Of a stretch of 47,954 nt of DNA, positions 2,556 to 44,819 are shown piece by piece. Position 1 is the stretch's first letter; the number at the start of each line of letters is the position of its first letter. The notes below the pieces were generated by a model. The model was not told the origin of the DNA. It saw nothing but the letters and a program-made list of their open reading frames with translations, and ran no database searches. The position numbers and the translations under genes were made by a program. Source of the stretch: a virus; IMG/VR virus record IMGVR_UViG_3300021343_000064, positions 1 to 47,954 of that record; one strand, 5' to 3'.

Positions 2556-5500
2556 GCGGCCACCGCCTCTACGTCAATTTCCGCATTGAGTGCTGGCGCC
2601 ACGGCAAACGATACGCTGTAGACAAAGCCGTCGTATTTAACGGTGTAATCCTCGGCGCTGCCTTCGCGTTTTTTGCTGCCGTCGATATAGGCCCGCTTGG
2701 GCTTCCAGCCTTTGGGCAACGCAAAATCCGTCTCCGTACCATCGCCGGTAAACTCAAAGTCCTCACGCTGCCCTTTCGGATCGTTCAACGCCTGCGCCAA
2801 CCGCTCGCGGATATTGACCGCTGGCAGATCGGCATCAAGGCCGTTAGCGCCGGTGAGGAGCAGTGCACCGTTGGTGGCATCGATGGATTGGAAGGGGGCT
2901 GCGCGTGATACGGCCTTTACTGACACATTGTCAACGTCACCAACAAAATCTGCAGACGCCTGAATCAGCACTTTCTCCCCTGCCCCACTTGCGTGCAGAA
3001 CAGCGGTAAAGGTTCCGTTACCGGAGAACGCGGAAGACCATTCGCCCAGGTTTGCCTTGGTCGTCCCGACTGTACTGTTGGAGACAGTCCAGGTCACCAA
3101 ATAAACGGCGTCTGCCGGCACGGCGGTCGCCCCGTCGTTTTTAAGGTTTGAAACGGCGGTTTGCGTACCATCGGAGCTGGCCAGACCGCCCGAAATTGTC
3201 CAGCCGGTGCCCTTAGTCCAGTCGCTATCAGCGTCGAATGTGCCATTGAGCGCAAGCTCCGCCGCCCCATCCAGCGAACTCGCCACCCTCTCTAATCCTT
3301 GGAATGTGGAGACCACACCCTCAGAGGCCACGCGCAACAGGTCTCGCTCTTGATCGTAAGCCAATGCTTTGACATCGGAATCGTCGCCGTCGAGGACTGC
3401 GCCTCCTTTGAGCATGCGCGACTCGTCGCGGTATATCTTTTTGATTTGGTCGGCGCTTGGAAGAGTGTTGCCAATTTTCACCAAAGCAATGCCGTTTGGT
3501 GCGTTACCGGCAGAAATGTTTCCATATGCCAGCTCATCAGGCTGCACCCAAGCGCCAGCTGTTGCCTCCCCTTCCTTGACGCCGTTAACCCAAAGCTCCT
3601 TTTTATTGGTTGACGAATTGTAAAGGCAAACAACGTGCACATAGGTGTCTTCGCTGGTCCCTGTGTCAACTTCCACGTTACTAGTTAGGGTGTTGGTCCA
3701 CCCGATAAACCTAACGTTTTTTCCGTTGGCGCCACCGCTCTCAATATTAAAGTCGTTGCCGCCGTTGGTGGGATTGAGGTCTGGATGGTCAGTGATCACA
3801 CCACAGTAAGGCGCAAAGTTAACCCAACCCATAAAACACCAGTCGCTAACACCATCAGGAATCAGCGGCATGGGTACGCGTAAGTGGTCATTTAGAGCAT
3901 ATGGGCTACTTACACCAGACCGGGTAAAGCCCTCAATAGCTGCGATCTCTCCACTGCCTATCGCGCTAAGGCTTAAGGTGCCGTGGGTGGGAACATGATT
4001 GTCATTGCCAGACAGGTCAGCGTCAGCATCCATCAAAACCACGTTATCAATGGACCCGTTAAAACTGCTATTTGCCACGATGGCAATGGTTGTTGCATCT
4101 TCTACAGCAGTAAGTGCAAAAGACTTCTTGCCCGTAGTGGAAATGTCATCATTAAAAACAACGCCACCCACATCAACATAGTTGATTGCGCCAGCGTTTA
4201 CGGCTGTCACTTCAAAAGTCAGTACGTAGTTATTTCCAGAAACCAACGTTGCGTTTTCTTGCAGCGAGGAGTTGCCTGCTTGTGTGCCGTCACACGTTGC
4301 CACGCCACCTGAAATGGACCAACCATCGCCCTTCGTCCAAGTGGTGTCTGTATCAAAACCGCCATTAACGGAATGGTCAACGCCAACCAGGGAGCCAAAA
4401 GCAGTCTTGCAGGCAAAAGCCAATTGCGTATCGCCCACCATCCAGCCGGTGTTATATTTGTCGGTGATATGGGCAGACATGCCCTTTGTGGGGTCGGCGG
4501 GATTTTCGTGGAGCAATGTCAAACCGTTGCTACTACCGCGCGCCCCAGGCACGAGAGACGAAGCAGTGCCACCTGCCAACATTGCAGGTGTGGTGTCCGT
4601 CTTGTATTGAGTATCGTGGTTAAAACCGTTAGCCAACGAAGCGACATCACGCACAATTCGGGTATCACCATTACCGGCATCAGCTGCGAACCACATTTCG
4701 GAACCGTTAAAGCCGCCGCGATGGAAAGCGATGGTCGCACCGCTATTAACAACTGTATCGTCGTTTTGAATGACGGACACACCACCATCGGTTAAGACCT
4801 CAACAGTCGGAATTTTCAAGCCGGTTGCAGGGTCCACCGGGGCGTTGTCGAGGGTGGTGGTGGCTATGGCGTTAATGGAGTAGCCCACCAACTCATGTGG
4901 CCTGAGAGTGGCCGTCCCCAAATTGAGAAGACCGGTCGTTGAGTCAAATGCAAATGTACCGGGGGAAAAGCTACCATAATTCTTAGTTGACGCCTTTAGT
5001 TCCCCCCTGGCAAAGTTAAACTGAAACAACCCATTGCCACTCCAAGCGGCATTATCAGGCTTGTTACCAATGCTGAGCACACCCTCACCAGCGGCCACCG
5101 AAGATAGCTTGGTGTCCCAAAAATGAACACCACTACGCAATACCAGCCACATGGTCAGCTCAGACCCGCTCGCATCGAAGATAATCACGCGGTCAGATTC
5201 AGCGGCAATCACCACCTGAGAAGGGAAATTCTTAGAACCTGCGCGGTAAATAGTAATTTCAGCACCAGCCCCGCTGGTTATCTCTTTGAAAAAGCCGTTC
5301 CCGGTGTTGTAGTACCAATCCCCCACTTGGGCGCTGCCATTATTAATGGCGTCAAGCCCTCCAACAAACTGCCCGACATAACGCCCACTCGGCACCGCCT
5401 CCTGGCCATACGACAAGAACTCGGTGCGGTGAATCCAGGCGCCGCCGTCGCTGTCGTTGGAAGTGTCGTAGAAGCACACCGCTTTCACATCGAGGCCAGG

Positions 5501-5872
5501 GTAGAGGGCGCTCAGTTGCGGAATGGTGTAGGTCAGCCAGTCATCGTCTAACTTGCCCGTGGCATAGGCTACCGGGTGCGCCCCATCTGCCGGGGTGGTA
5601 GAGCCGCCGCTGTTGTAAACGATAGCCGTGGCGTTGGCTTCGGCGGTTTGGGCGGCATCCCGCGCAGCTTCGGCACCGGTGCGAGCGGTTTGTGCTGAAG
5701 CGGCATCTGCTGCCGCCGCTTGCACTTGAGTAGTGGTCCAGTTTTTGGTGTTGGTGGTTTCCGTTTCCAGATCATTACCCAGGCTCTCGAACGCATCAAC
5801 GGTTGCGTTGTGCTTGGTCGGGTAGTCGGTATCGCCAACATTGATTTTATTGGCCTGCAAATTAAAAGGCAT
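2552..5872 (-). CDS. Tail fibre/receptor-binding protein with LamG-like domain
   Basis: This 1106-residue protein is the largest gene after the tape measure and the obvious fibre. Residues about 35-85 are an alanine-rich coiled coil (AAAADAASAQTARTGAEAARDAAQ). The middle is glycine- and beta-rich. At about 499-620 and 872-990 there are two copies of a carbohydrate-binding-like beta-sandwich beginning NG.FD.D..WTKG.GW.ISGG; between them, about 640-830, lies a LamG/concanavalin-like domain ending in KKELWVNGVKEG. The C-terminus (FEFTGDGTETDFALPKGWKPKRAYIDG) resembles the terminal region of other fibres. The lectin-like modules suggest binding to surface polysaccharide. No endosialidase or autoproteolytic chaperone motif is evident. 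Confidence 0.85.
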   Translation of the reverse strand: MPFNLQANKINVGDTDYPTKHNATVDAFESLGNDLETETTNTKNWTTTQVQAAAADAASAQTARTGAEAARDAAQTAEANATAIVYNSGGSTTPADGAHPVAYATGKLDDDWLTYTIPQLSALYPGLDVKAVCFYDTSNDSDGGAWIHRTEFLSYGQEAVPSGRYVGQFVGGLDAINNGSAQVGDWYYNTGNGFFKEITSGAGAEITIYRAGSKNFPSQVVIAAESDRVIIFDASGSELTMWLVLRSGVHFWDTKLSSVAAGEGVLSIGNKPDNAAWSGNGLFQFNFARGELKASTKNYGSFSPGTFAFDSTTGLLNLGTATLRPHELVGYSINAIATTTLDNAPVDPATGLKIPTVEVLTDGGVSVIQNDDTVVNSGATIAFHRGGFNGSEMWFAADAGNGDTRIVRDVASLANGFNHDTQYKTDTTPAMLAGGTASSLVPGARGSSNGLTLLHENPADPTKGMSAHITDKYNTGWMVGDTQLAFACKTAFGSLVGVDHSVNGGFDTDTTWTKGDGWSISGGVATCDGTQAGNSSLQENATLVSGNNYVLTFEVTAVNAGAINYVDVGGVVFNDDISTTGKKSFALTAVEDATTIAIVANSSFNGSIDNVVLMDADADLSGNDNHVPTHGTLSLSAIGSGEIAAIEGFTRSGVSSPYALNDHLRVPMPLIPDGVSDWCFMGWVNFAPYCGVITDHPDLNPTNGGNDFNIESGGANGKNVRFIGWTNTLTSNVEVDTGTSEDTYVHVVCLYNSSTNKKELWVNGVKEGEATAGAWVQPDELAYGNISAGNAPNGIALVKIGNTLPSADQIKKIYRDESRMLKGGAVLDGDDSDVKALAYDQERDLLRVASEGVVSTFQGLERVASSLDGAAELALNGTFDADSDWTKGTGWTISGGLASSDGTQTAVSNLKNDGATAVPADAVYLVTWTVSNSTVGTTKANLGEWSSAFSGNGTFTAVLHASGAGEKVLIQASADFVGDVDNVSVKAVSRAAPFQSIDATNGALLLTGANGLDADLPAVNIRERLAQALNDPKGQREDFEFTGDGTETDFALPKGWKPKRAYIDGSKKREGSAEDYTVKYDGFVYSVSFAVAPALNAEIDVEAVAA

Positions 5873-5874
5873 CG

Positions 5875-6717
5875 TTAAACCTCTTCAAAGGTGAGTTTTG
5901 TGCTGTTGGTGTTCGAAAATCGCGGGGTGAAAGTGGAATTGTTAACGCGCTTTGCGATCATGGTTTGCTCTAAACCCAATCGACCGCCTAAGCCAGGATC
6001 AAGCGAAAGCAGAATATCGCCGCCTTTGGTGGCCTTTGCCAGCTCATGGGAAAGCCGCTCCCGGTCAATGTCCGTCAACCATTGCAGATCAACAGACGCG
6101 CGCCGGTACGCCTCCACATTTTCAGTGCGAAGGGAACCGCCCGCTGTGCGCGTGTGCTTGGAATTGTCGATCAGTTCAAACGCGGAGCCGTAATTAAAGT
6201 TAACCGTGGGCGCAAAGGCCCAGCCCATAAACAAACGGCCAATATCAATGTCGGTGTTGTCCGGTGCGCTCACGTCAATTTGTAGCGAACGATAAGCCAC
6301 CGCGTCAAACCATAAGCTAAAGATTGCAGGCAGCCCGCTATCGTCCTCATAGTTGGCGCCCCAGGTATCAATACCAGCCCGCATCACACCCCAGGGAATG
6401 GGCGTTCCCACGCTAAGCGCCGTTGAGTCATACACCACATTGCCGGTTTGGTTTTGATCGTCATACAGCCTAAGCCGTACCGTTGAGGAGTTTTTAAGGT
6501 TGTGCCGCGCCAGCCCAAAGCCAGACGCATAGGCCGCCACCGTTGGCCGGTTGGCGGTAATAGCAACACTGGTGCCATTGACGCGCATGATTTTCCCACG
6601 CGCCTGCTTTTGCATGTTGGTTTCTGGCAGCGTCGCCACTGGCGCCGGTGATGCGGATAACGTTAAATCATCTAGGTCATTGCCCAGAATCATATGCAAG
6701 TTTCGATCTATGCCCAC
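5875..6717 (-). CDS. Tail-tip protein, 280 aa
   Basis: The protein lies between the hub-like protein and the fibre in a tail operon and is beta-rich, with features such as SSTVRLRLYDDQNQTGNVVYDS and a W/F-rich middle (SLWFDAVAYRSLQIDV). No catalytic motif is visible. Its position and size fit a distal tail or tip component linking the hub to the fibre. The start overlaps the end of the upstream gene by ten bases, so translation is probably coupled. The precise family is not recognised. Confidence 0.65.
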   Translation of the reverse strand: MGIDRNLHMILGNDLDDLTLSASPAPVATLPETNMQKQARGKIMRVNGTSVAITANRPTVAAYASGFGLARHNLKNSSTVRLRLYDDQNQTGNVVYDSTALSVGTPIPWGVMRAGIDTWGANYEDDSGLPAIFSLWFDAVAYRSLQIDVSAPDNTDIDIGRLFMGWAFAPTVNFNYGSAFELIDNSKHTRTAGGSLRTENVEAYRRASVDLQWLTDIDRERLSHELAKATKGGDILLSLDPGLGGRLGLEQTMIAKRVNNSTFTPRFSNTNSTKLTFEEV

Positions 6718-8066
6718 AGGGTCAACTCCATACGCCGTTTACCAACGCGCCGGTTAATGCCAATCACAACCGCATCCTTGCCGCTATCCCAGCCCAAAGC
6801 CGGGTAAGTCAGGTTGACGGTTTCACCCAGCTCCACCTCAGACGCCGGTAAAAAACAGGTAGCCCGCCACACCCGGCGCCGAACACTGCGCAAAGACGCA
6901 CGCCGGTCACACTCGGTTTGCGCGTCGGTTTGATTCGCGATTAACGTATTAACGCGGTCATCTTGCGCCAGCGGATTGTTAGCCAGATTGTTGTCCTTGG
7001 TAACGGTCAAATATTCAATTTCAAAATCGTTTTTTTCGTCCGCGTCCAATGACCCAGCCAAAGAATCCGGGCTTTGCTGATACCAGTTTTTTCGATAGCC
7101 CAGAGTAAACACCTCAGTGGGCCGCTCAGTAGCAGACAGCTTTAAGCCCCGTTCAATAACATCATCATTGGTCAGGGTTAGCGTTGCTGTGCCTGGTGCC
7201 TCCAGGCGGAATATTTGGAGCTCGCCACTGGTGTTAAACCGGTAGGTTGCCCCCACGCTGGCCAACACATCAGAAAGCACGCTTTCTAAGTCGGTCGGCT
7301 CATCGATATAAACACCTAAGTCGTCCGTATTGGCGAACGCTGACAGGTTAGCGCTATCCACTGCGATGCTCGCCCGGTTGCACAGCTCGTCCACAATATC
7401 CGCTGCTGATTTATCGGCTTGCGATACGTCACAGGTTATTTGTCCAGCGGGTTGGGACGCCAAGGTAAATTCACCATTGGCCAAGTCTTCCGTGGGCGAA
7501 ATTACCACACCGTTGTCGCGTACCGTCAGCGCCGTCACCGCGCCATCATGGGCTTTGTATTTCAGGTTAACCGCGTCAATCAAAACCGGCTTGCAGTTGT
7601 ACACTTCACCCAATGCAATGGGCGTCGTATCGCTGCCGATATTGACCCGCAGATTTTCGCCCCGGTCCAACACCACCCATTCAAGGCGGTCATCGTCTGG
7701 CGCTTCAATGCCGCCGTTAATGCCGTCGATCACTAGCCGGAAATCCGCCCGACTCCAGGCTTTATCACCTAAAAAGACTTTTAGCGCATAGCCCCGCCAG
7801 TTGTAATCAAGCCAGCCGTCAAGCTCGCCATCATTGACTAGCAACAGGTCGCCAACGGTAGCGGCATCAAGTCGGTTTTCAACCTCTACCTCCCCAATCA
7901 ATACATCACTGTATGACGTATCGGCCGGGGTATCGGTGGCGCCGGAAATAAAAGGCGCGGAGGCCACATATTCTGTGCCCCCGCTGTGCGTTGCTTCAAC
8001 CAGTATCACCGGGTCAGCGTCATCAGACGCCAACCAATCGGTGTACTGCTGGTCAGTTATGCTCAA
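6708..8066 (-). CDS. Tail hub/baseplate-like protein, 452 aa
   Basis: This is the first gene after the tape measure, the usual place for a distal-tail or hub protein. It is predominantly beta-stranded, and the C-terminal third has the LGETVNLTYPALGW....AVVIGINRR pattern seen in phage tail proteins that end in a small beta-barrel domain. The middle (SAADIVDELCNRASI...ESVLSDVLASVGATYRFNTSGEL) resembles a hub domain that folds around the tail axis. It overlaps the tape measure stop by four bases. Assignment rests on order and fold pattern, not on a diagnostic motif. Confidence 0.7.
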   Translation of the reverse strand: MSITDQQYTDWLASDDADPVILVEATHSGGTEYVASAPFISGATDTPADTSYSDVLIGEVEVENRLDAATVGDLLLVNDGELDGWLDYNWRGYALKVFLGDKAWSRADFRLVIDGINGGIEAPDDDRLEWVVLDRGENLRVNIGSDTTPIALGEVYNCKPVLIDAVNLKYKAHDGAVTALTVRDNGVVISPTEDLANGEFTLASQPAGQITCDVSQADKSAADIVDELCNRASIAVDSANLSAFANTDDLGVYIDEPTDLESVLSDVLASVGATYRFNTSGELQIFRLEAPGTATLTLTNDDVIERGLKLSATERPTEVFTLGYRKNWYQQSPDSLAGSLDADEKNDFEIEYLTVTKDNNLANNPLAQDDRVNTLIANQTDAQTECDRRASLRSVRRRVWRATCFLPASEVELGETVNLTYPALGWDSGKDAVVIGINRRVGKRRMELTLWA

Positions 8067-11000
8067 GCTACTGCCCTCGTATTAACATCGCGTTTAAGCG
8101 TGCGATTGATGCGGTCCGCGTCCTCGCTGGCTTGCGATTTTGCGTCTTCGCGCTGCAAGGCTGCGCCTTCGGCAATCGCCGCGTTTTCCTCGCGCAATTG
8201 TTTAACCTCGGCTTTCAGCTCGTCCACCGATTGCACCAGCTTATCACTCGCCACAGAGGGTGGAGCGCTGAGCGTTACCGGGATCGTGCGACCATCGGGC
8301 AGCGGAACCGCAGCCTCTGGACCGGCCTCGCCAAAGATCGACGGCTCGTTAGCAATGCCGCCCTTGGCGTAAAAGCCGCCCCAACTCCAGCCGCTCAACG
8401 GATTGTTTTCGGCAAACCAGTCCTGGTAAGCCGCCACAAAGTCCGCGTTATTGGCGTCATAGTTGGCCAGCCAATCGCTCCAGGTGTCATAGCTATAACT
8501 GGGCGACTCCGGCTCTGGTGGCGCCTCATAACCGATAGCCTCCTGCACAGCAACCGGCAGCACAGCCAGGTTAATATCCAACTCCTCGGCCAGAGAACCG
8601 ATGGCCAGGTTAAACACATCACCCAGCGCCCGCAGCTCGTCTGTCATGGACGTATCGAGGCTGCCAAGGTCAACGCCAAAGCTCTCAGCCAAACCGGCCA
8701 GATCCTGCCCCATGCCCTCCAGCAGCTGCAGATTGCTCAAGCCGCCAAGCGCCTTACCCAACGCCTCAAGCTCGGACTTCATGTTGCCGTCAAGACCGTC
8801 AATTTTGAGCCCCAGGTTGCCCAGCAGCTCGCCATTGGTCAGGTTTAACGTACTGCCGAGCGCTACCAGTTGCTGCGCGCTGCTTTCGTTCAGGTTTTGG
8901 ATATCAATGCCGAGGTCATCGGCCAGGTCAGCAAAACTGGTACCCAGCAGGTCCAGCAGGTCAATGGAAGAGGTCTCCATCAGCCCGGCCAGATCGGCAA
9001 TTTTGCCCACCGTGTCGAGGCTCAGCGCTTCGATATTCAGCCCAAAGTCCTTGGCCAGATCATCGATATCAATCCCCAGCGACTCCATTAAAGTGCCGAC
9101 TGATACGTCCTTGGCCAGTCCCAGGTCGCCGAGCGCTGTCGCCAGTTCAGCCGCGTCGAGTTGCCGCGATTCCGAGGCTTCCTGAGCCCGTAGTGCCTCC
9201 AGTTCGGAATAAAGATCCGCCAGGGTATCAGAGTCCCCTACAGCGGTTTTAGCCGGCTCAGAGGCCCCACCAAACAGCGAGGACAGCCCGCCCAGTTCCT
9301 GATTCACGCCCAGGAAAATGTCGCGATAGTCGCCGCTGCTCGCGTAAAAGTCGCGGGCAATTTTCAGATAGTCGCCCGCGATTTTAGTCGCGTCCTGAGC
9401 TGCACCCGCATCGCCACCCTTGGCCGCGTCCACTGCTGCCTCGAATTGCGCGCGCGCCGCTGCCAGCTGCTGAGTTGGTGTCAATATAGACAGCTCACCC
9501 AGTTGCAGGGAGTCCACGTATTCAGATAAGCGCCTTTCCGCTGCCAGAGCATCGCTATAGCGTTTTTGCTCGGTGCGATAGAGCGAATCTGCCGCCTTTT
9601 GCTGCTCAGCAATACGCGCCTTTTCCTCTGCAATACGCTGCTCGATATCTGAACCAGCGCCGTATAGGCGATCAATCAGCGAGCCAATCCCAGACTCAAG
9701 GTTGGCGATTATGTCCTGGTGCTGCTCCAGCGCCTGGAAATACTCATCCATCACCGGGACCAGGGCCATGTATGCAGCAAACTGCTTTTGCGCCGCCTCG
9801 TCCGCCAGGTCCAGGGACTCGACCATAGCCTGAAACTCGCGCCGGGTTTCGGGCAGCTGGGCGTTAAGCTCAACAAAGGTTTTTTGCATTCCGTCCTGGA
9901 AAACCACAAACCGCTCGCTACCGGTCATAAACGCCGTGGCGTAGTTGTTAGCAGCGGCCGCGAACGCGTCCACGCCACCAAACAAACCGGTCAGCGTATC
10001 AGCCGCCCGTATGCCAGCCTCGTCCAGATCCAGGACGCGCATACCAATCTTGCCAATAACGTCGTTTGCGCCCACCAGGTTGATAGAGAGCCGCGTCAAC
10101 GTGGTCGCCGCGACTTCGCCCTCCTGGATCAAGTCCTTAAACGGGAAAGCGCTAACGGTTTTATTGAGCTGGCCGAACCAAAACGGCAAACCGCTGGCCA
10201 CCTGCTCGGTGTCGTCAAGTGTTGGCACAAAGCGATCCAGCACCAGCTTTAAGTCGCCAGTAGCGCTACCAACCAGGCCAACAGCCGAGATAATACCGCC
10301 CGCATGGTCGCTGATGTCCTTCATGGAAAGGCCCGCGGTCAGCGTGTCCATGGTCTCGTCGAACTTGCCGCCCACGGCATCGGACCAAGCTGTTACAAAT
10401 TCACCAGCGGCCTCATCAATCTGGTTTTGATCTACGCGGTTATATGCCGCCGAACCAAAAAAGGCGCCGTCTGCATGGCCTGCATCACCGGACTTCCCCT
10501 TTAAGGCAACGCCACCCAAATCGACGGACTGCCCCAAGGTTTCCGCCGCCGCGACCATGGACTGATCCATCAGCAAAAAAGCGTCCAGCATGGTGCGGGC
10601 CGCCTTATCGCCGTCGCCACCAACACGGCGTGACATAGACGTAAGCTCCAGGCCACTGGCTGCGATTTCGGTATCTTTCAGGTATCGCCCGCCATGCAAG
10701 TCGGCGGCATGTACGCCCAAAGAAACCCGCTTTTTACCGTCGCCACCAAAAGCCACGTCAGCCAACGCGCCCAGGGCTGCGCCGATAAGAGCGCCTACAG
10801 GGCCAGCCCAGGCGCCCATTTGCATGCCGAGGACAGCGCCGGAGGCTGCGCCAGCAAGGCCGCCGATAGTGCCGCCAGCTATCTGACCATAGCTGTGCTC
10901 GGCTTCCTTGCCGAAAAGGCCCTCACCTATGGCGTTACCAGCTTGGCCGCCCAGGTAACCAGCGCCGGCAGTAATCAGGCCGCCGCCTATCAGGCCACCG

Positions 11001-30691: not shown

Positions 30692-30890
30692 TGGCGTTAT
30701 CTCCTCTTAAGTCTGCATAAATGCCGTTGAAGTCGATCTGCCCCCGGCTGTGCTCAACAATGTGTGCTGCCGTGCGAGGCTCTGGCACACGCTCCCCACG
30801 GCGCCAGCTTGTAACGGTACGTGGCTTAACTCCCCACATTTGAGAGCACTTTTGGTCGCCGTAGCGTGTTATTAATTCAATTAGTGTCAT
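30684..30890 (-). CDS. cro: Cro-like repressor, 68 aa
   Basis: The small protein begins with a helix-turn-helix (ELITRYGDQKCSQMWGVKPRTVTSWRRGERVPEPRTAAHI). It is divergent from the CI-like gene and separated by about 145 bases containing two operator sites, the lambda cro arrangement. It heads the leftward early operon, and its start is within 60 bases of the candidate promoter. By analogy it would turn down cI and later early transcription. Confidence 0.8.
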   Translation of the reverse strand: MTLIELITRYGDQKCSQMWGVKPRTVTSWRRGERVPEPRTAAHIVEHSRGQIDFNGIYADLRGDNANA

Positions 30891-30935
30891 TTTTAAGCAA
30901 AATACCCCTGCAAAATGTTACTTTTTGGCCAAAGA

Positions 30936-30952
30936 CTGCACAATCTGTGTAT
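30936..30952. promoter_or_regulatory. Operator site O2 (CAC-N5-GTG)
   Basis: CTGCAC-AATCT-GTGTAT matches the same half-sites as the site 41 bases away. It overlaps the -10 of the cro promoter, so a bound repressor would block cro. Confidence 0.65.
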
Positions 30953-30976
30953 ATATGGGCCGTTTCGTTTGATCAA
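30948..30976 (-). promoter_or_regulatory. Candidate cro promoter
   Basis: On the minus strand TTGATC (30976-30971) lies 17 bases from TATACA (30953-30948). Its -35 shares the TTTGATCAAA palindrome with the -35 of the opposing cI promoter. Confidence 0.55.
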
Positions 30977-30996
30977 ATACACTTTGCGTGTATAAT
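30969..30996 (+). promoter_or_regulatory. Candidate cI promoter
   Basis: TTGATC (30969-30974) is 16 bases from a consensus TATAAT (30991-30996). The start codon of cI lies 40 bases beyond, with GAGAGGAA as ribosome site. Operator O1 covers its spacer and touches the -10, so cI may repress itself. Confidence 0.65.
30977..30993. promoter_or_regulatory. Operator site O1 (CAC-N5-GTG)
   Basis: ATACAC-TTTGC-GTGTAT is a perfect inverted repeat with six-base arms, the best of four such sites. It lies between the divergent promoters and overlaps the cI -10. Confidence 0.75.
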
Positions 30997-31035
30997 TATT
31001 TAACCCTTAATTAAGTCCCCACTGAGAGGAACTGC

Positions 31036-39469: not shown

Positions 39470-39678
39470 AGCCGCCAGCCTGGGGCGGCAGCCAATACCA
39501 GGACACGCCTAGCGGGTGGTGGTGTGGATAAAAACAACTCCCGCAGCCAAGGCCGTTATGTGCTGGCCCTCTCCTCTTTGCAGCTCCCGCCGCTGTCCGG
39601 GTGGAGGCGGAAAGGTGGAAACCCGGCGAGTGGGCTAGGCGGTGACTTGGCATACTTTTAATAAACAGAGGGAATATT
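39470..39678 (+). other. GC-rich gene-free gap with hairpins
   Basis: No gene is supported in these 209 bases. The stretch starts with a GCCGCC/GGCGGC hairpin directly after the nuclease stop and contains CCGGGT/ACCCGG arms (near 39597 and 39628) with other short complementary pairs, so its RNA could fold extensively. It ends in AACAGAGGGAA, the ribosome site of the next gene. Confidence 0.4.
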
Positions 39679-39871: not shown

Positions 39872-40273
39872 GTGGTCGCTGCAAAAACCTACGCCTACCA
39901 GGGGCAGCAGCTCACCATTAAACAGCTGGCCGCCCTGCCGATCTGCGCAGTGAAAGCAGAAACCTTGCGCTCGCGGCTGCAGAAGCATCGCGACAGTTGG
40001 CCGTCCATTACGGACGCCCTAAAAACGCCGTCAGGCAGCCGGCCGCCATATGTAGCGCAAAAGGTCGAGGGCGAGCTTAAGCCTCATCACCAGCGAGTAC
40101 TGGCGCTAATGGAGTCGGGCGAGTGGTACAGCCAGCGACAGCTTCAAACAAATCGAATTTGTATTATGCAGCTGGTGCGCTCGGGCTATGTCCGCCGTAA
40201 ATACGCGGAGGGTCGCCGCTGTCATAGGTCTGACACTGGGCAGTTGTATCAACTAAAGGAGCAAAGTAAATGA
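39872..40273 (+). CDS. Hypothetical HTH-like protein, 133 aa
   Basis: I chose the GTG preceded by TGGAGG over an ATG that lies inside the membrane-protein gene. The first part (YAYQGQQLTIKQLAALPICAVKAETLRSRLQKHRDSWPSITDAL) reads like a helix-turn-helix for DNA recognition, and the C-terminal part (ALMESGEWYSQRQLQTNRICIMQLVRSGYVRRKYAEG) resembles a winged helix. It is basic overall. A DNA-binding regulator is likely; family not recognised. Confidence 0.6.
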   Translation: MVAAKTYAYQGQQLTIKQLAALPICAVKAETLRSRLQKHRDSWPSITDALKTPSGSRPPYVAQKVEGELKPHHQRVLALMESGEWYSQRQLQTNRICIMQLVRSGYVRRKYAEGRRCHRSDTGQLYQLKEQSK

Positions 40274-40479
40274 AGAATATGTGTGTTGAGTTCAAAGATG
40301 GAGTACACAAGGGCCAAACCGGAAAAGTGTTAAGTGAGGCATTTTTTGGTGATGACCATAAATTTTATGTTGTCGTTTTATCAGGTGGTGAGTTTATAAA
40401 AACCTGTACCGATATCCTAGTGCCAGCTGGCGAGCGCCAAAGCTCAGCTACAGCAGAGATAGAGGGGGCGATTCAGTAG
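40270..40479 (+). CDS. Hypothetical KOW-like small protein, 69 aa
   Basis: The N-terminal half (VEFKDGVHKGQTGKVLSEAFFGDDHKFYVVVLSGGEFIKT) is strand-rich with a G.H.GQ.GKV turn like that of KOW motifs. The rest is polar. AAGGAGCAAAGTAA gives a good ribosome site. Function is unknown. Confidence 0.55.
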   Translation: MKNMCVEFKDGVHKGQTGKVLSEAFFGDDHKFYVVVLSGGEFIKTCTDILVPAGERQSSATAEIEGAIQ

Positions 40480-40484
40480 CCGCT

Positions 40485-40694
40485 ATGTGGAAAATATTAA
40501 ACTTCCTGTTTGGCTGGGATTATATCGCCTGGAAAAACACCGCCGACAGCGGCATAGCCAGAATACGCCGAGACCAAAACGGCAATCTATTCTATTGGCG
40601 TTACAAGGCGACCAAAGTGGCCGACCCCATCACCAAGGCCCGCGACTTTTTATGGCTAACCTGTCCGCCAGAGAAATACGGAATAACTCAGTAA
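40485..40694 (+). CDS. Hypothetical protein, 69 aa
   Basis: The product (MWKILNFLFGWDYIAWKNTADSGIARIRRDQNGNLFYWRYKATKV...) begins with an aromatic-rich amphipathic stretch and contains the strand pair GIARIRRD/GNLFYWRYK. No family is assigned. It is the last gene before the series of tiny genes that share a repeated leader. Confidence 0.55.
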   Translation: MWKILNFLFGWDYIAWKNTADSGIARIRRDQNGNLFYWRYKATKVADPITKARDFLWLTCPPEKYGITQ

Positions 40695-40711
40695 TGTACT
40701 GGAGCAGAGAT

Positions 40712-40930
40712 ATGGTTTTGCAAACTGAAACGTTGGATAAGCTGTACCTTGAATGGTCTCAATTCACAAAGGCCAAGACAGGGAGAGAACTCAGGCTTGA
40801 GAACAAGATTCGCGAAATTGCCCAATCTAAAAGCTGGGAGGAACAGGCTGTTATGGCTGAGCTTGCGCTGGCTGACATTGAAGACCGACAGCCGGAGCAG
40901 TTCGCGCTCGACTGGCTCGATAACGCATAA
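40712..40930 (+). CDS. Hypothetical helical protein, 72 aa
   Basis: The ATG follows the first copy of the start-associated sequence (TGTACTGGAGCAGAGAT). The product (MVLQTETLDKLYLEWSQFTKAKTGRELRLENKIREIAQSKSWEEQAVMAELALADIEDRQPEQF) is helical and charged, without recognised family. A longer frame opening upstream overlaps the previous gene and is not supported. Confidence 0.6.
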   Translation: MVLQTETLDKLYLEWSQFTKAKTGRELRLENKIREIAQSKSWEEQAVMAELALADIEDRQPEQFALDWLDNA

Positions 40931-40948
40931 CTGTACTGGAGCAGAGAT

Positions 40949-41134
40949 ATGGATTTTCAAAAAGTGGTTGCTGGATCTGACAAACTAAAGCGCGGGATTG
41001 TCTGGTGTACCGAATGTGGTGTTCACCGCCATGTGGATAGTGAAGACTGTTTCAAGCATGGCTGGCCCAAGCACTGCGGCTACACCATGACAATCGACAG
41101 CCCAGAAGAGCGTGAAGCGCTCAAGTCACAGTAA
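40949..41134 (+). CDS. Zinc-finger-like small protein, 61 aa
   Basis: WCTECGVHRHVDSEDCFKHGWPKHCG contains four cysteines and three histidines in a compact metal-binding pattern. The ATG follows the second copy of the start-associated sequence. The protein is probably a small zinc-binding domain; its target is unknown. Confidence 0.65.
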   Translation: MDFQKVVAGSDKLKRGIVWCTECGVHRHVDSEDCFKHGWPKHCGYTMTIDSPEEREALKSQ

Positions 41135-41157
41135 TGTACGTTTTTAAGGAGTAGAAA

Positions 41158-41337
41158 GTGCCAAAGGTAAAAGTGAAATACACGGTTAAAGCGACTCAGA
41201 TTATCGACTGGCCAGAGGATGAGATGAGCAATTTTGACTACGACAATCTGGAGTGCAACCTGGAGCCAGAAGAGTCTACGCTCACGGTAGGTGATATTGT
41301 GGATGTCCAGGTTGATGGCAAGCCCTACGACTTTTAA
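41158..41337 (+). CDS. Hypothetical acidic protein, 59 aa
   Basis: A GTG behind TAAGGAG starts a product (VPKVKVKYTVKATQIIDWPEDEMSNFDYDNLECNLEPEESTLTVGDIVDVQVDGKPYDF) with a basic strand first and then an acidic, strand-rich body. No family is recognised. TGTAC lies 18 bases before the start. Confidence 0.55.
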   Translation: MPKVKVKYTVKATQIIDWPEDEMSNFDYDNLECNLEPEESTLTVGDIVDVQVDGKPYDF

Positions 41338-41363
41338 GGGTCAATTTTGTAAGTGGTGGAAAT

Positions 41364-41579
41364 ATGGAATGGATAAGCGTAAATGACCGGCTTCCTTTTG
41401 ATTACAGGCAAGCTGACAAATTCGAATCCATCGAGGTGTTGGTTGTTAGTGGTAGTGTAGTTATGCCCTGTGAGTTTACTTGTGGGAATTTGCCAGAACC
41501 TTGGTACAAATTCGGAGCGCTGCATAAAGGCTTTGTAACCCACTGGATGCCGCTGCCGGAACCGCCTGAAAACGCATAA
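41364..41579 (+). CDS. DUF551 family protein, 71 aa
   Basis: The pattern MEWISVNDRLP...VLVV...THWMPLPEPP is that of DUF551, a small phage/prophage family of unknown function in which W.....DRLP and HWMPLPEPP are the hallmarks. The gap before it carries only a degenerate form (TGTAAG) of the repeated leader, with GGTGGAAAT as ribosome site. Confidence 0.88.
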   Translation: MEWISVNDRLPFDYRQADKFESIEVLVVSGSVVMPCEFTCGNLPEPWYKFGALHKGFVTHWMPLPEPPENA

Positions 41580-41610
41580 CTGTACCCGATTTAACAACAA
41601 GGAATAGGCG

Positions 41611-41949
41611 ATGAATGTAAATATGAGTAATGGCCGGATCGTTATTGACGGGCGAGAGTTTCGCGGCAACAACGTAACCATCAGCAACGGGAAAGTCACA
41701 GTCGATGGTATTGTGCAGGACGGCGAGCTATCCGGCCCTATAAATGTGACCATCCACGGCGATGTTCAGAGCATCGAAAATCACGCGGGCAACGTCACCG
41801 CTCAAAACGTTGGCGAGATTAGTACCGGCTCTGGTGATGTGAAGTGCGGCAATGTTAGCGGGTCAATCCGTACCGGGTCCGGTGATGTCGAATGTGGAGC
41901 TGTCTCGGGGAATATTCGCACTGGATCAGGCGACGTGTGCCACCGATAG
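41611..41949 (+). CDS. Repeat protein with GSGDV turns (bactofilin-like), 112 aa
   Basis: After a strand-rich start (GRIVIDGREFRGNNVTISNGKVTVDG) the C-terminal half is built of 16-residue repeats: ISTGSGDVKCGNVSGS, IRTGSGDVECGAVSGN, IRTGSGDVCHR. Such even repeats with turns at G-S-G-D and hydrophobic Ile/Val positions predict a short right-handed beta-helix, as in bactofilins and related adhesin-like stacks. The cysteines would line up on one face. Its function is unknown; related short phage proteins exist. Confidence 0.6.
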   Translation: MNVNMSNGRIVIDGREFRGNNVTISNGKVTVDGIVQDGELSGPINVTIHGDVQSIENHAGNVTAQNVGEISTGSGDVKCGNVSGSIRTGSGDVECGAVSGNIRTGSGDVCHR

Positions 41950-41983
41950 GGGCGAATTTGTACGACGCGGAAATAAGGATTTG

Positions 41984-42328
41984 ATGATGACTATAAAGTT
42001 CGAAGACTTAAGAAAGGCCAACGCCTCAAGGGGTGTCGAGTGGTGCGGGCGCCCCAACAGCATAGAAGATCTAGAGTTCTGCGCTATTGAGCTGGGCGGC
42101 GAAACTGGCGAGGCTCTGGACGCAGTTAAAAAGTATCTGCGCGACTTGAAGGGGTTCATCGGTGGAGTTGGAGGGAAAGAAGGATTGCAGGATATAGCCG
42201 ACGAGCTGGGCGACGTTGTTATCTCTGCCGACCGGCTGGCTGAAACCCTGGGCATTGATCTGGGCAAGGCCGTGCAGGATAAATTCAATAAGACAACAGA
42301 AAAGCACGGACTGGAGACAACGCTGTGA
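41984..42328 (+). CDS. MazG-like nucleotide pyrophosphohydrolase, 114 aa
   Basis: The sequence CAIELGGETGEALDAVKKYLRDL...GLQDIADELGDVVISADRLAETLGIDLGKAVQDKFNKTTEKHG has the ExxGE...ELGDVV signature of the MazG-like all-alpha NTP-PPase family with the metal-binding E/E/D set complete. It hydrolyses NTPs or dNTPs to monophosphates. The ATG pair follows TGTAC and AAGGATTTG. It is the second such gene in the genome. Confidence 0.82.
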   Translation: MMTIKFEDLRKANASRGVEWCGRPNSIEDLEFCAIELGGETGEALDAVKKYLRDLKGFIGGVGGKEGLQDIADELGDVVISADRLAETLGIDLGKAVQDKFNKTTEKHGLETTL

Positions 42329-42573
42329 AGCAGTCAAAATTGGGCTCACTGATTGAGACCTGCATTAACACCCTGATTGGTTTTTGTGTGGCTTATTTCG
42401 CTTGGCCGGTTGCGGCCTATATCTGGGATATACCCTACAACCATGGCCAGCATTTTGGGGTTGTGCTGTTCTTTACAGTAATCAGCGTGGCCAGGGGGTA
42501 TGCCGTTAGGCGCTGGTTCAACCATATGATTCACTCAGCATCAGTGGGGTTAGCCAAGAAACTGAATCCATAG
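42325..42573 (+). CDS. DUF7220-like membrane protein, 82 aa
   Basis: The product KQSKLGSLIETCINTLIGFCVAYFAWPVAAYIW...FGVVLFFTVISVARGYAVRRWFNHM matches a family with two membrane segments starting KQS.LGSLIE...NT..GF and ending VIS..R.Y..RRWFN, common in phages. The GTG overlaps the MazG-like stop. Function is unknown. Confidence 0.82.
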   Translation: MKQSKLGSLIETCINTLIGFCVAYFAWPVAAYIWDIPYNHGQHFGVVLFFTVISVARGYAVRRWFNHMIHSASVGLAKKLNP

Positions 42574-42625
42574 GCTCAGATTTTTTGGCCGCTGGAAATA
42601 AAATTATTGTACGAGGACAGAGATT

Positions 42626-42811
42626 ATGAAACGCTATTTTTGGTCGGGTAACACACCCACTATCAATGGCCGCAATCAACAACGATGTGGCGTAGTTGAA
42701 GTAGAGGATGATGTAAAACCCGGAGACTTGGTTGACCAAATATGCAAAGACATGTGTGAGGAAAGCAACGCAAGATCTTTTGTTTTGGTGGCCTTTAATC
42801 TGGTTGAGTAA
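42626..42811 (+). CDS. Hypothetical protein, 61 aa
   Basis: The ATG follows TGTACGAGGACAGAGATT, a good copy of the repeated leader. The product (MKRYFWSGNTPTINGRNQQRCGVVEVEDDVKPGDLVDQICKDMCEES...) looks like a small alpha/beta protein without recognised family. Confidence 0.6.
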   Translation: MKRYFWSGNTPTINGRNQQRCGVVEVEDDVKPGDLVDQICKDMCEESNARSFVLVAFNLVE

Positions 42812-42836
42812 TCCGACTACATAGGACTTTAGAAGT

Positions 42837-42941
42837 ATGTCATTTAGTGAATCCGATGTAAAAGCCGCAATACGTGAAATGGAAACTCTGGGTCTTTGGG
42901 GCCGCGCAAGAGAGTTGCGAAATCGATTCGCAATTAAATAG
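42837..42941 (+). CDS. Tiny helical protein, 34 aa
   Basis: The short frame MSFSESDVKAAIREMETLGLWGRARELRNRFAIK fills the gap between neighbours, with a TAGAAGT stretch before the ATG. It reads as two amphipathic helices rich in arginine. Only packing and the absence of another gene support it. Confidence 0.4.
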   Translation: MSFSESDVKAAIREMETLGLWGRARELRNRFAIK

Positions 42942-42970
42942 CGAATTTGTACAAACTGCGAGTAAGAGAT

Positions 42971-43183
42971 ATGGACGACATTGATCCGGTCTGGAAAGAG
43001 CTACTTGAGTGCCGCTGCTCGGATGAGTACAGCATTGAGCCGCATGGCGAGGGCCATGCCTTATATTTTGGCCGATGTGGTCACCGCCATGGATACAACC
43101 TGTTGCACATAACAGAGTGTAGTCGGCAAGATATTCTTGACCTTATCGTCAAGCGCCTAAACACAAACACCTGTGCTAATTGA
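42971..43183 (+). CDS. Hypothetical Cys/His-containing protein, 70 aa
   Basis: The ATG follows TGTACAAACTGCGAGTAAGAGAT. The product (MDDIDPVWKELLECRCSDEYSIEPHGEGHALYFGRCGHRHGYNLLHITECSRQDILDLIVKRL) contains C.C and C.H...H groups that could bind a metal. Its last codons (NTNTCAN) contain the TGTGC variant of the repeat for the next gene. Confidence 0.6.
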   Translation: MDDIDPVWKELLECRCSDEYSIEPHGEGHALYFGRCGHRHGYNLLHITECSRQDILDLIVKRLNTNTCAN

Positions 43184-43193
43184 GAGATAGATT

Positions 43194-43334
43194 ATGGATT
43201 TAGCTTTGTCGTTTTTTGTGGGGGCCTTGGTTGGCTCCTGGCTAATGAAAAGCCGAACGGATAGCTACTGGATTTACAGAATTAGGAAAGGGCATATCCC
43301 CTCGCCTGATGAAGTAAAAGACTGGATGCCATAA
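43194..43334 (+). CDS. Small membrane protein, 46 aa
   Basis: One membrane segment (LALSFFVGALVGSWLM) is followed by a basic, tyrosine-rich cytoplasmic tail (KSRTDSYWIYRIRKGHIPSPDEVKDWMP). GAGAGATAG precedes the ATG. No family is recognised. Confidence 0.55.
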   Translation: MDLALSFFVGALVGSWLMKSRTDSYWIYRIRKGHIPSPDEVKDWMP

Positions 43335-43366
43335 CGCAATCACCTGAACAAACGGAGATTAAAACC

Positions 43367-43495
43367 GTGGAAATATATGACGTAGTTTGCCGCCTTGAAG
43401 AATTGAGGGAAAGTGTAAAAACCAAAGAGCCTGACGAAGTGATTAAGGAGATTAACGCGTTGCTTTGGGATATTGAAGAAAACGATATGGAATAA
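43367..43495 (+). CDS. Tiny acidic helical protein, 42 aa
   Basis: A GTG behind CGGAGATT starts VEIYDVVCRLEELRESVKTKEPDEVIKEINALLWDIEENDME, two amphipathic acidic helices. Acidic tiny proteins of phages often inhibit DNA-binding host proteins, but nothing specific supports that here. Confidence 0.5.
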   Translation: MEIYDVVCRLEELRESVKTKEPDEVIKEINALLWDIEENDME

Positions 43496-43527
43496 TCGCT
43501 AACCGCTGTACTAACTGAGATTTGACC

Positions 43528-43677
43528 ATGGATGAAGCAACCGAGTGCCGATTCTGTCACTACACCATCGTTACTGACGAGTGGTTTTATTGCTGTGACC
43601 AGTGTGGCGCCGAAAGCTGCCCTGACTGCGCTGGTCGCTGCGGTTGTGACGATAACACAAACACCTGTACGGATTGA
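43528..43677 (+). CDS. Cysteine-rich zinc-finger protein, 49 aa
   Basis: The product has ten cysteines in 49 residues (ECRFCHYTIVTDEWFYCCDQCGAESCPDCAGRCGCDDNTNTC), enough for two treble-clef or ribbon-type zinc sites. The start follows TGTACTAACTGAGATT. Its last codons again encode NTNTC, as does the gene at 42971, and thereby carry the repeat for the next gene. Confidence 0.6.
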   Translation: MDEATECRFCHYTIVTDEWFYCCDQCGAESCPDCAGRCGCDDNTNTCTD

Positions 43678-43685
43678 GAATAGCT

Positions 43686-43904
43686 ATGGGATACATGGAA
43701 TCGAAAATGCAGGACCAGATTGAAGCGGGCATTGCCCTCAAGGATGCCTTTGACGCATGGTTTCTGCAGTGCCAGGAAATCGCGCTTCATGGCTATGGGT
43801 GTCAGATACCGGATGAGGAGGAAAGCGAATATTACACGTATTTCCGCAGGGGCTGGACGCCGGACGACACCATGTACGATGTCTATGTGACGCACGCCAA
43901 ATAG
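43686..43904 (+). CDS. Hypothetical protein, 72 aa
   Basis: The product (MGYMESKMQDQIEAGIALKDAFDAWFLQCQEIALHGYGCQIPDEEESEYYTYFRRGWTPDDTMYDVYVTHAK) has a helical start and a tyrosine- and acid-rich end. It is the last gene of the repeated-leader series. No family is recognised. Confidence 0.6.
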   Translation: MGYMESKMQDQIEAGIALKDAFDAWFLQCQEIALHGYGCQIPDEEESEYYTYFRRGWTPDDTMYDVYVTHAK

Positions 43905-43953
43905 TTAACTGCTGTACGAGAGGAGATTAAATCGCGCTAATAAAATTCGCGTG

Positions 43954-43975
43954 CAAGGGTGGCACTCCACCCTTG
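43954..43975. terminator. Convergent hairpin between right operon and basic peptide gene
   Basis: CAAGGGTGG and CCACCCTTG form a perfect 9-bp stem with a CACT loop. It lies between the last rightward tiny gene and the leftward 38-residue gene, so it can end both transcripts. T runs are short on both sides. Confidence 0.6.
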
Positions 43976-43985
43976 TAAGCCGCCC

Positions 43986-44102
43986 TTACTTGCACTTAGG
44001 CAGTGACTTAGGCTTAGACCGTTTGTGAGGCTTCACAGTGACGGTTTTCGGCCCAGGTTTGCCAGAAGTCCGAGTGGGTCGACACTTGGTTTTTGGTGCC
44101 AT
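43986..44102 (-). CDS. Very basic 38-aa peptide with perfect Shine-Dalgarno
   Basis: On the minus strand TAAGGAGGTGAT, fully complementary to the 16S rRNA tail, lies four bases before this ATG. The product (MAPKTKCRPTRTSGKPGP...KPHKRSKPKSLPKCK) has about 13 Lys/Arg, many prolines and no acidic residue. It is convergent with the right operon and lies alone. It could bind nucleic acid or an acidic partner. No promoter was identified. Confidence 0.6.
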   Translation of the reverse strand: MAPKTKCRPTRTSGKPGPKTVTVKPHKRSKPKSLPKCK

Positions 44103-44294
44103 ACGTATCACCTCCTTACGGCGGCTGGTTGCCTACCGCCTCTTTTCAGTAGTTGGCCAGGCCGAGGGTGCTAGTTATGGCAAAAGAGGAGTGCCACCGA
44201 TTGCTTGTATATCAAACCCGCATAGAGCATACAACAAAGCACAAATTTCCTAAAAAGCAAGAAAATACGGGCAATTAATCCCAGCAAAAAGCTG
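44103..44294. other. Gap upstream of the radC promoter
   Basis: I see no strong gene. A 33-codon rightward frame begins at 44177 but its ribosome site is poor. The leader of the leftward basic peptide gene occupies the left part. Confidence 0.35.
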
Positions 44295-44375: not shown

Positions 44376-44819
44376 ATGAACCTAACAGATGATCAGATCA
44401 TCGCTAAAGCCATCGCCATCCTGGAGGCTCGCGCCACCAAGGGTATCGCCCTTACCTCTCCTGCTTCCGCAGCCAACCTGGTGCGCCTGAAAATGGCGAG
44501 CCTGGAGCGTGAAGTTTTCGCCGCTTTATTTCTGGATAACAGCCACTGCCTGATTGAATACCGCGAGCTGTTTTTTGGCACTATCGACGGCGCGGCGGTT
44601 TATCCCCGCGAGGTGGTAAAGGCAGCCCTACAGGCTAACGCTGCGGCAGTGATCTTTGCCCACAACCACCCCAGCGGCAACACCGAACCCAGCCAGGCGG
44701 ATCGTAAGATTACCTCCCGCTTGGTGGATGCGTTGGCGTTGGTTGATGTCCGGGTACTTGATCATTTTGTAGTGAGTGATGCGGGCTTTACCAGTTTTGC
44801 AGAACGCGGGCTAATCTAG
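44376..44819 (+). CDS. radC: RadC-like JAB/MPN domain protein, 147 aa
   Basis: The protein is a short RadC family member. The JAMM metal-binding set is present: E46, HNH (H96, H98), S100 and D109 in [15 protein letters not shown]. The N-terminal helix-hairpin-helix part of full RadC is missing, as in the plasmid/prophage (YeeS-type) forms. Despite the name, a DNA repair role of RadC is unproven; phage and island copies are often near anti-restriction genes. It has its own regulated promoter. Confidence 0.88.

Follow-up and report, generated by a model that had tools for sequence, protein, structure and literature searches.

A TGTAC-cored intergenic element, probably both a gene-start control signal and a joint for swapping tiny genes, in a lambda-like phage

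In silico analysis of a row of tiny phage genes revealed a repeated intergenic element with TGTAC as its core, which is probably a gene-start control signal and also a joint for swapping the tiny genes. The window, i.e. the whole stretch of DNA analysed, is IMG/VR record IMGVR_UViG_3300021343_000064 (47,954 bases, positions 1 to 47,954). Its virus encodes a lambda-like terminase, a repressor and an integrase-like ORF at the right end, and is a lambda-like temperate phage. The right arm carries recombination and replication genes and then the row, which comprises 15 tiny genes of 34-114 aa on the + strand (40485..43904), delineated from the ORF list, family search and codon score. The annotated frame has the top codon score among the six frames in 15 of 16 tiny ORFs, and the tiny ORFs of the row look real. 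Family search identified a DUF551 gene (41364-41579), a MazG-like gene (41984-42328) and a DUF7220 gene (42325-42573), all on the + strand; the last two overlap and leave no gap between them.

Occurrence and structure of the element

The element is a degenerate sequence of about 26-34 nt that starts close to the stop codon of the preceding gene and reaches the Shine-Dalgarno region, with a consensus of roughly AACRCAAACACC-TGTAC-taatTGAGA. Thirteen copies have been delimited, all on the + strand. Nine possess an exact TGTAC within a gap: copy 1 at 40683..40711 (core 40695-40699), copy 2 at 40919..40948 (40932-40936), copy 3 at 41135..41157 (41135-41139), copy 5 at 41568..41610 (41581-41585), copy 6 at 41950..41983 (41959-41963), copy 7 at 42597..42625 (42608-42612), copy 8 at 42939..42970 (42948-42952), copy 11 at 43495..43527 (43507-43511) and copy 13 at 43905..43931 (43913-43917), the last having a Shine-Dalgarno-like stretch and no gene after it. 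The tenth exact core (43666-43670, copy 12 at 43654..43685) is located within the last codons of gene 43528-43677. Variant cores are represented by TGTAA at 41348-41352 (copy 4, 41338..41363), TGTGC at 43172-43176 in the last codons of gene 42971-43183 (copy 9, 43160..43193) and TGAAC at 43345-43349 (copy 10, 43333..43366). Two gaps of the row, 40480-40484 and 42812-42836, hold no copy. The nine gap cores, the exact and TGTGC cores inside the ends of two genes and the TGAAC core in another gap had been described in the original prediction, all coordinates of which proved correct when the positions were rechecked.

The same prediction held that nine copies exceed chance, and proposed a motif search against shuffled gaps; this has been run and bears the claim out. 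The 15 gaps of the row total 373 bases, in which TGTAC is the commonest 5-mer (9 copies), followed by GAGAT (8). Dinucleotide shuffling within gaps gave TGTAC a mean of 0.22 and a maximum of 3. When all 5-mers were considered, the most frequent one in each of 2,000 such shuffles occurred 3.8 times on average and at most 7 times, so that no 5-mer came to 9 copies. Under pooled shuffling, which is harsher, at least 9 copies of some 5-mer were seen in 0.2% of cases. Over the whole window TGTAC is not enriched (47 observed, 55 expected), and the signal is therefore local.

A repeat finder blind to TGTAC placed its leading direct-repeat families on the boundaries of the row. These are: (i) a 26-nt family at 43160, 43333, 43495 and 43654; (ii) a 42-nt pair at 40683/40920 (copies 1 and 2), 86% identical and running past the start codon; (iii) an 18-nt pair at 40919/41568; (iv) a 12-nt pair at 41952/42941. 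The four members of family (i), all within 43160-43679, follow one another at intervals of 173, 162 and 159 bases, a near-regular arrangement despite the unrelated genes between them.

The sites share one orientation and are confined to the tiny-gene row. In the window the core-to-start distance is 11-25 nt (mean 16, sd 3.8), whereas the stop-to-core distance ranges from -12 to 34 (sd 11.6); the tighter spacing on the start side indicates that the element is tied to starts, and the earlier term “start-associated” is thereby justified. The TGTAC...GAGAT motif as first described has to be amended: the TGTAC core stands, the conserved block extends beyond it, and the GAGAT box mostly coincides with the Shine-Dalgarno region and is therefore not a second independent signal. 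The spacing from the core to the Shine-Dalgarno sequence is variable, about 0-22 nt, so that direct contact of the core with the ribosome is not favoured. That nothing beyond ordinary ribosome-binding sites and chance is present is scarcely credible: GAGAT largely is the Shine-Dalgarno region, yet for TGTAC this explanation is refuted by the lack of Shine-Dalgarno pairing, by counts above all shuffles and by recurrence in a second phage.

The element in a second phage and searches for further carriers

A search with the tiny proteins yielded, among the matches listed, a single contig, L160 (IMG/VR 3300021343_000074, 22.5 kb). Its repressor and tiny genes differ from those of the window, and its integrase is distant. 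In a protein comparison of the two genomes, the terminase, the adjoining gene (probably coding for the portal), one small protein and the integrase match distantly (21-33% identity). The single close protein match is a 69-aa protein (64% identity), encoded in both phages at the head of the tiny-gene row. In the DNA, apart from the 69-aa gene, the two genomes are credibly similar at TGTAC boundaries, and the genes adjoining them are dissimilar. The best of these matches covers 33 bp at 91% (window 41337-41369, E 1.3e-5), around copy 4, whose counterpart gap in L160 has the exact core; two further matches are a 30-bp one of 87% identity (E 0.007), where copy 8 resembles an L160 gap, and a 42-bp one of 76%, which by itself is not significant (E 0.28).

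Exact cores number five in the 343 gap bases of the L160 row, against an expectation of 0.26, and this number was attained in 0 of 5,000 shuffles. When a model trained on the window copies only was applied to the whole L160 genome, both strands included, its top seven matches were all row gaps, two of them with one-base variants of the core, TGTAA and TGCAC. Only the first three have E <0.05, and the strength of this result therefore lies in where the matches fall. Some starts in L160 are preceded by a variant core only. A joint model of both genomes recovered, up to E 10, 12 row copies and one weak extra match (E 9.6), and found nothing convincing in 65 other phage loci. The comparison of relatives, also proposed originally, thus shows the same element before L160's own tiny genes; orthologous starts are not comparable, since the tiny genes of the two phages differ.

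Among the tiny genes of L160, an Acb2/Tad1-hairpin-family gene was identified at 9098-9355 (PF24729, E 8e-19), whose DNA sequence is conserved in many phages, those of Vibrio among them. The cargo of the two rows, i.e. the Acb2/Tad1-family gene in L160 and the MazG-like, DUF551 and DUF7220 genes in the window, fits an accessory role.

Among the matches listed and the genomes sampled, the carriers of the element are two, the window and L160. Searches by helicase or terminase protein gave no close relatives (best about 45%), the tiny proteins had no match among 50,697 phage records, and the DNA pattern TGTACTGGAGNNNAGATATG had none in viral contigs. Two shared boundary patterns returned, from viral contigs, L160 and a chance match inside a gene of an AT-rich phage; a match in E. 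coli phage ST32 (E 4), likewise inside a gene, was rejected. No homologue of the 69-aa protein was present in 391 + 369 sampled genomes, which are small parts of their groups, and a weak match to it in locus L178 looks like chance. In the genome samples, model R1 gave isolated matches only, with no clusters, and the boundary pattern at 2 mismatches one isolated match. The match in locus L161 is one short (24-aa) similarity with no element before it. A crude scan of all loci for other start-linked 5-mers was discarded, as the window, used as positive control, gave no signal. The TGTACs of locus L070 are mostly codons of a pentapeptide-repeat-like protein; in that locus (364-1239 and 4548-7205) this protein, rich in TGTAC codons, was noted together with a helicase ORF apparently broken by an intein-like insert, the insert being judged by eye.

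Proposed gene-start control and gene exchange at the boundaries

Comparison of the flanks of 19 boundaries, anchored on the core, revealed 11 left and 12 right similar pairs (score at least 8), where about one each is expected. Similar left halves are paired with unrelated right halves, and vice versa; in the clearest mosaic, copy 2 (40919-40948), the left half is of the 41568-41585 type (copy 5) and the right half of the 40695-40715 type (copy 1). The copies at 43160 and 43654 take in the last codons of two unrelated genes, and shared boundaries stand beside different genes in the window and L160, which are two distant phages and not a close pair. Directly after the gene-less copy with its core at 43913, RNA fold analysis places a strong hairpin, AAGGGTGG..CCACCCTT (43956..43978, listed without strand), as a possible transcript end with a putative terminator role; the promoter/terminator scan did not call it as a terminator. 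Mosaic flanks, shared last codons and a gene-less copy followed by a hairpin are the residue to be expected if genes had been swapped or lost at a joint that they share. The original suggestion that tiny genes are gained and lost by recombination is in this way supported at the level of sequence.

Given the independently recombining flanks and the gene-less copy, the favoured reading is a conserved leader associated with gene starts that at the same time serves as a boundary for swaps. The copies would then form one family of start-associated intergenic elements, each acting as a leader site read by a trans-acting factor and as a joint for gene exchange, a reading held tentatively and at somewhat less than an even chance.

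The mosaic flanks could also be explained if units of gene plus boundary were copied or swapped and the boundaries were remnants or substrates of this process, without a role in expression. The likeness extending into the last codons of unrelated genes, the 42-nt repeat that passes a start codon and the copy without a gene after it all agree with such scars. However, copying and decay should leave the flanks as conserved as the core, whereas in an alignment of 18 copies conservation is 97% over the five columns of the core and 52% in the flanks; a contrast of this kind arose in 0 of 20,000 runs of a uniform-decay simulation, the alignment being anchored on the core. The sites moreover hold their distance to starts and not to stops, and a core of 5 bp does not by itself offer enough length for ordinary homologous recombination. 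Recombination scars as the whole explanation are therefore considered rather unlikely.

A site acting on transcription at the DNA level, such as an operator, a stoperator-like silencing site or an unusual promoter part at each gene, is judged unlikely. The single orientation, intergenic position and repetition along one transcription unit recall stoperators and the extended start-associated elements (ESAS), but a promoter scan found no sigma-70-like promoter on the + strand within the row; an unusual promoter or sigma factor is still conceivable. In 30880-31035, the putative operator region preceding the window repressor, no TGTAC occurs; the inverted repeats of that region differ in sequence from the core, and the core is common to two phages with different repressors. 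No RNA fold common to the copies was found; in view of this and of the missing + strand sigma-70-like promoter, a linear site in the leader of one mRNA is held likeliest.

Gene-by-gene translation and a phage regulator were among the possibilities named in the original prediction, and both remain conjectural. For the start-associated leader, the following course of events may be proposed. The row would be read as one transcript, in which the core would serve as an mRNA-leader site recognised by a trans-acting factor of the host or the phage, possibly the 69-aa protein, and this factor would set the translation of each tiny gene. Because every cassette has the same joint, the element would also offer short homology for the gain, loss or swap of tiny accessory genes, with the operon kept intact. 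The 69-aa protein (40270..40479, + strand, at the head of the row) is a candidate reader of the element at the RNA level, as it is the sole close protein common to both phages and heads both rows. Its structure model, of low confidence (pLDDT 56), has a small five-strand fold, and Foldseek gave weak matches (E 0.05 or worse), mostly to eukaryotic small ribosomal subunit chains. These chains we take to be eS4, which carries a KOW domain, so that an SH3/KOW-like domain, possibly present in the 69-aa protein according to the model, is a lead and not a result. A full cassette system dedicated to this task in temperate phages of this type, in which the unit is a tiny accessory gene, counter-defence genes included, from TGTAC to TGTAC, exchange occurs at the core, a protein of the 69-aa family reads the core in the mRNA and an inserted gene is expressed at once, appears quite improbable.

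Relation to known intergenic elements

The start-associated sequences (SAS) of cluster K mycobacteriophages are asymmetric repeats in one orientation directly upstream of many right-arm genes, with the Shine-Dalgarno sequence included; they are kept across phages before different gene families and show a fixed 13-mer, GGGATAGGAGCCC, at 3-9 bp from the start, in gaps of over 50 bp and in mycobacterial hosts (PMC3203893; PMC11373665; PMC12699233). Like SAS, the element repeats in one orientation directly upstream of the start codons of many non-structural genes; unlike SAS, its core lies 11-25 nt from the start and has a different sequence. The SAS consensus, with up to 2 mismatches, had 0 matches in the window, so the likeness to cluster K put forward in the original prediction is retained for the link to starts and the single orientation, as an analogy only. 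ESAS consist of imperfect 17-bp inverted repeats with a short spacer and a putative SigA-like promoter (PMC11373665). In contrast, the gaps of the row are without close inverted repeats and the row is without a + strand promoter-like site.

The PeSL cassettes of T4-type phages were reportedly described by Arbiol et al. in 2010 and Comeau et al. in 2014. As described in two further papers, they combine an early promoter with a stem-loop and are tied to gene shuffling (PMC4503421; PMC4177764). The element resembles them as a repeated intergenic element among small accessory genes, perhaps linked to modular shuffling; it differs in that the row gaps lack a promoter-like site or common stem-loop, and in that its phage is lambda-like and temperate. 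Integron gene cassettes rely on attC sites with long imperfect inverted repeats and on an integron integrase. No gap-sized inverted repeats were found in the row gaps, and the row therefore appears unlike attC by anatomy. Stoperators of cluster A mycobacteriophages are repressor-binding 13-mers, GGTGGMTGTCAAG, scattered through the genome, asymmetric, intergenic and mostly in one orientation. The element's sites are likewise asymmetric and intergenic, always in one orientation; unlike stoperators, they are tied to start codons, and the putative operator region has no copy of their core. The stoperator 13-mer had six matches in the window at 2 mismatches, 0 of them in row gaps.

The element would act as start-associated sequences do, and perhaps as a shuffling cassette does, but by the sequence features tested it is a member of neither SAS, ESAS, PeSLs nor stoperators (the last are mentioned in PMC3203893). 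Cluster K SAS and T4 PeSLs are its analogues, not relatives. It would provide, outside the mycobacteriophages, a second example, unrelated to the first, of start-associated sequences, a class that still lacks an explanation. To the question of how phages gain and lose tiny accessory genes with the operon intact, a start-linked joint, present in two phages with different cargo, would be a simple answer, and the element could serve as a sequence handle for counter-defence genes in unannotated tiny-gene rows.

Further features were noted in and around the row. Some 700 bases upstream of it, a gap contains at 39473-39548 (+) an Rfam Proteo-phage-1 RNA (RF03044, 45.8 bits, above the gathering score); it was not found in the L160 contig and is therefore not a required partner of the element. 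Gene 41611-41949 (+) encodes a 112-aa protein of repeated TGSGDV-type units with a weak likeness to the Toastrack DUF4097 fold (E 0.011). Directly past the row-ending hairpin, an ORF at 43986-44111 (-) has a strong Shine-Dalgarno sequence; the 41-aa peptide that it encodes is very basic and had no family match. After the row, 44376-44819 (+) encodes a short RadC-family protein of 147 aa.
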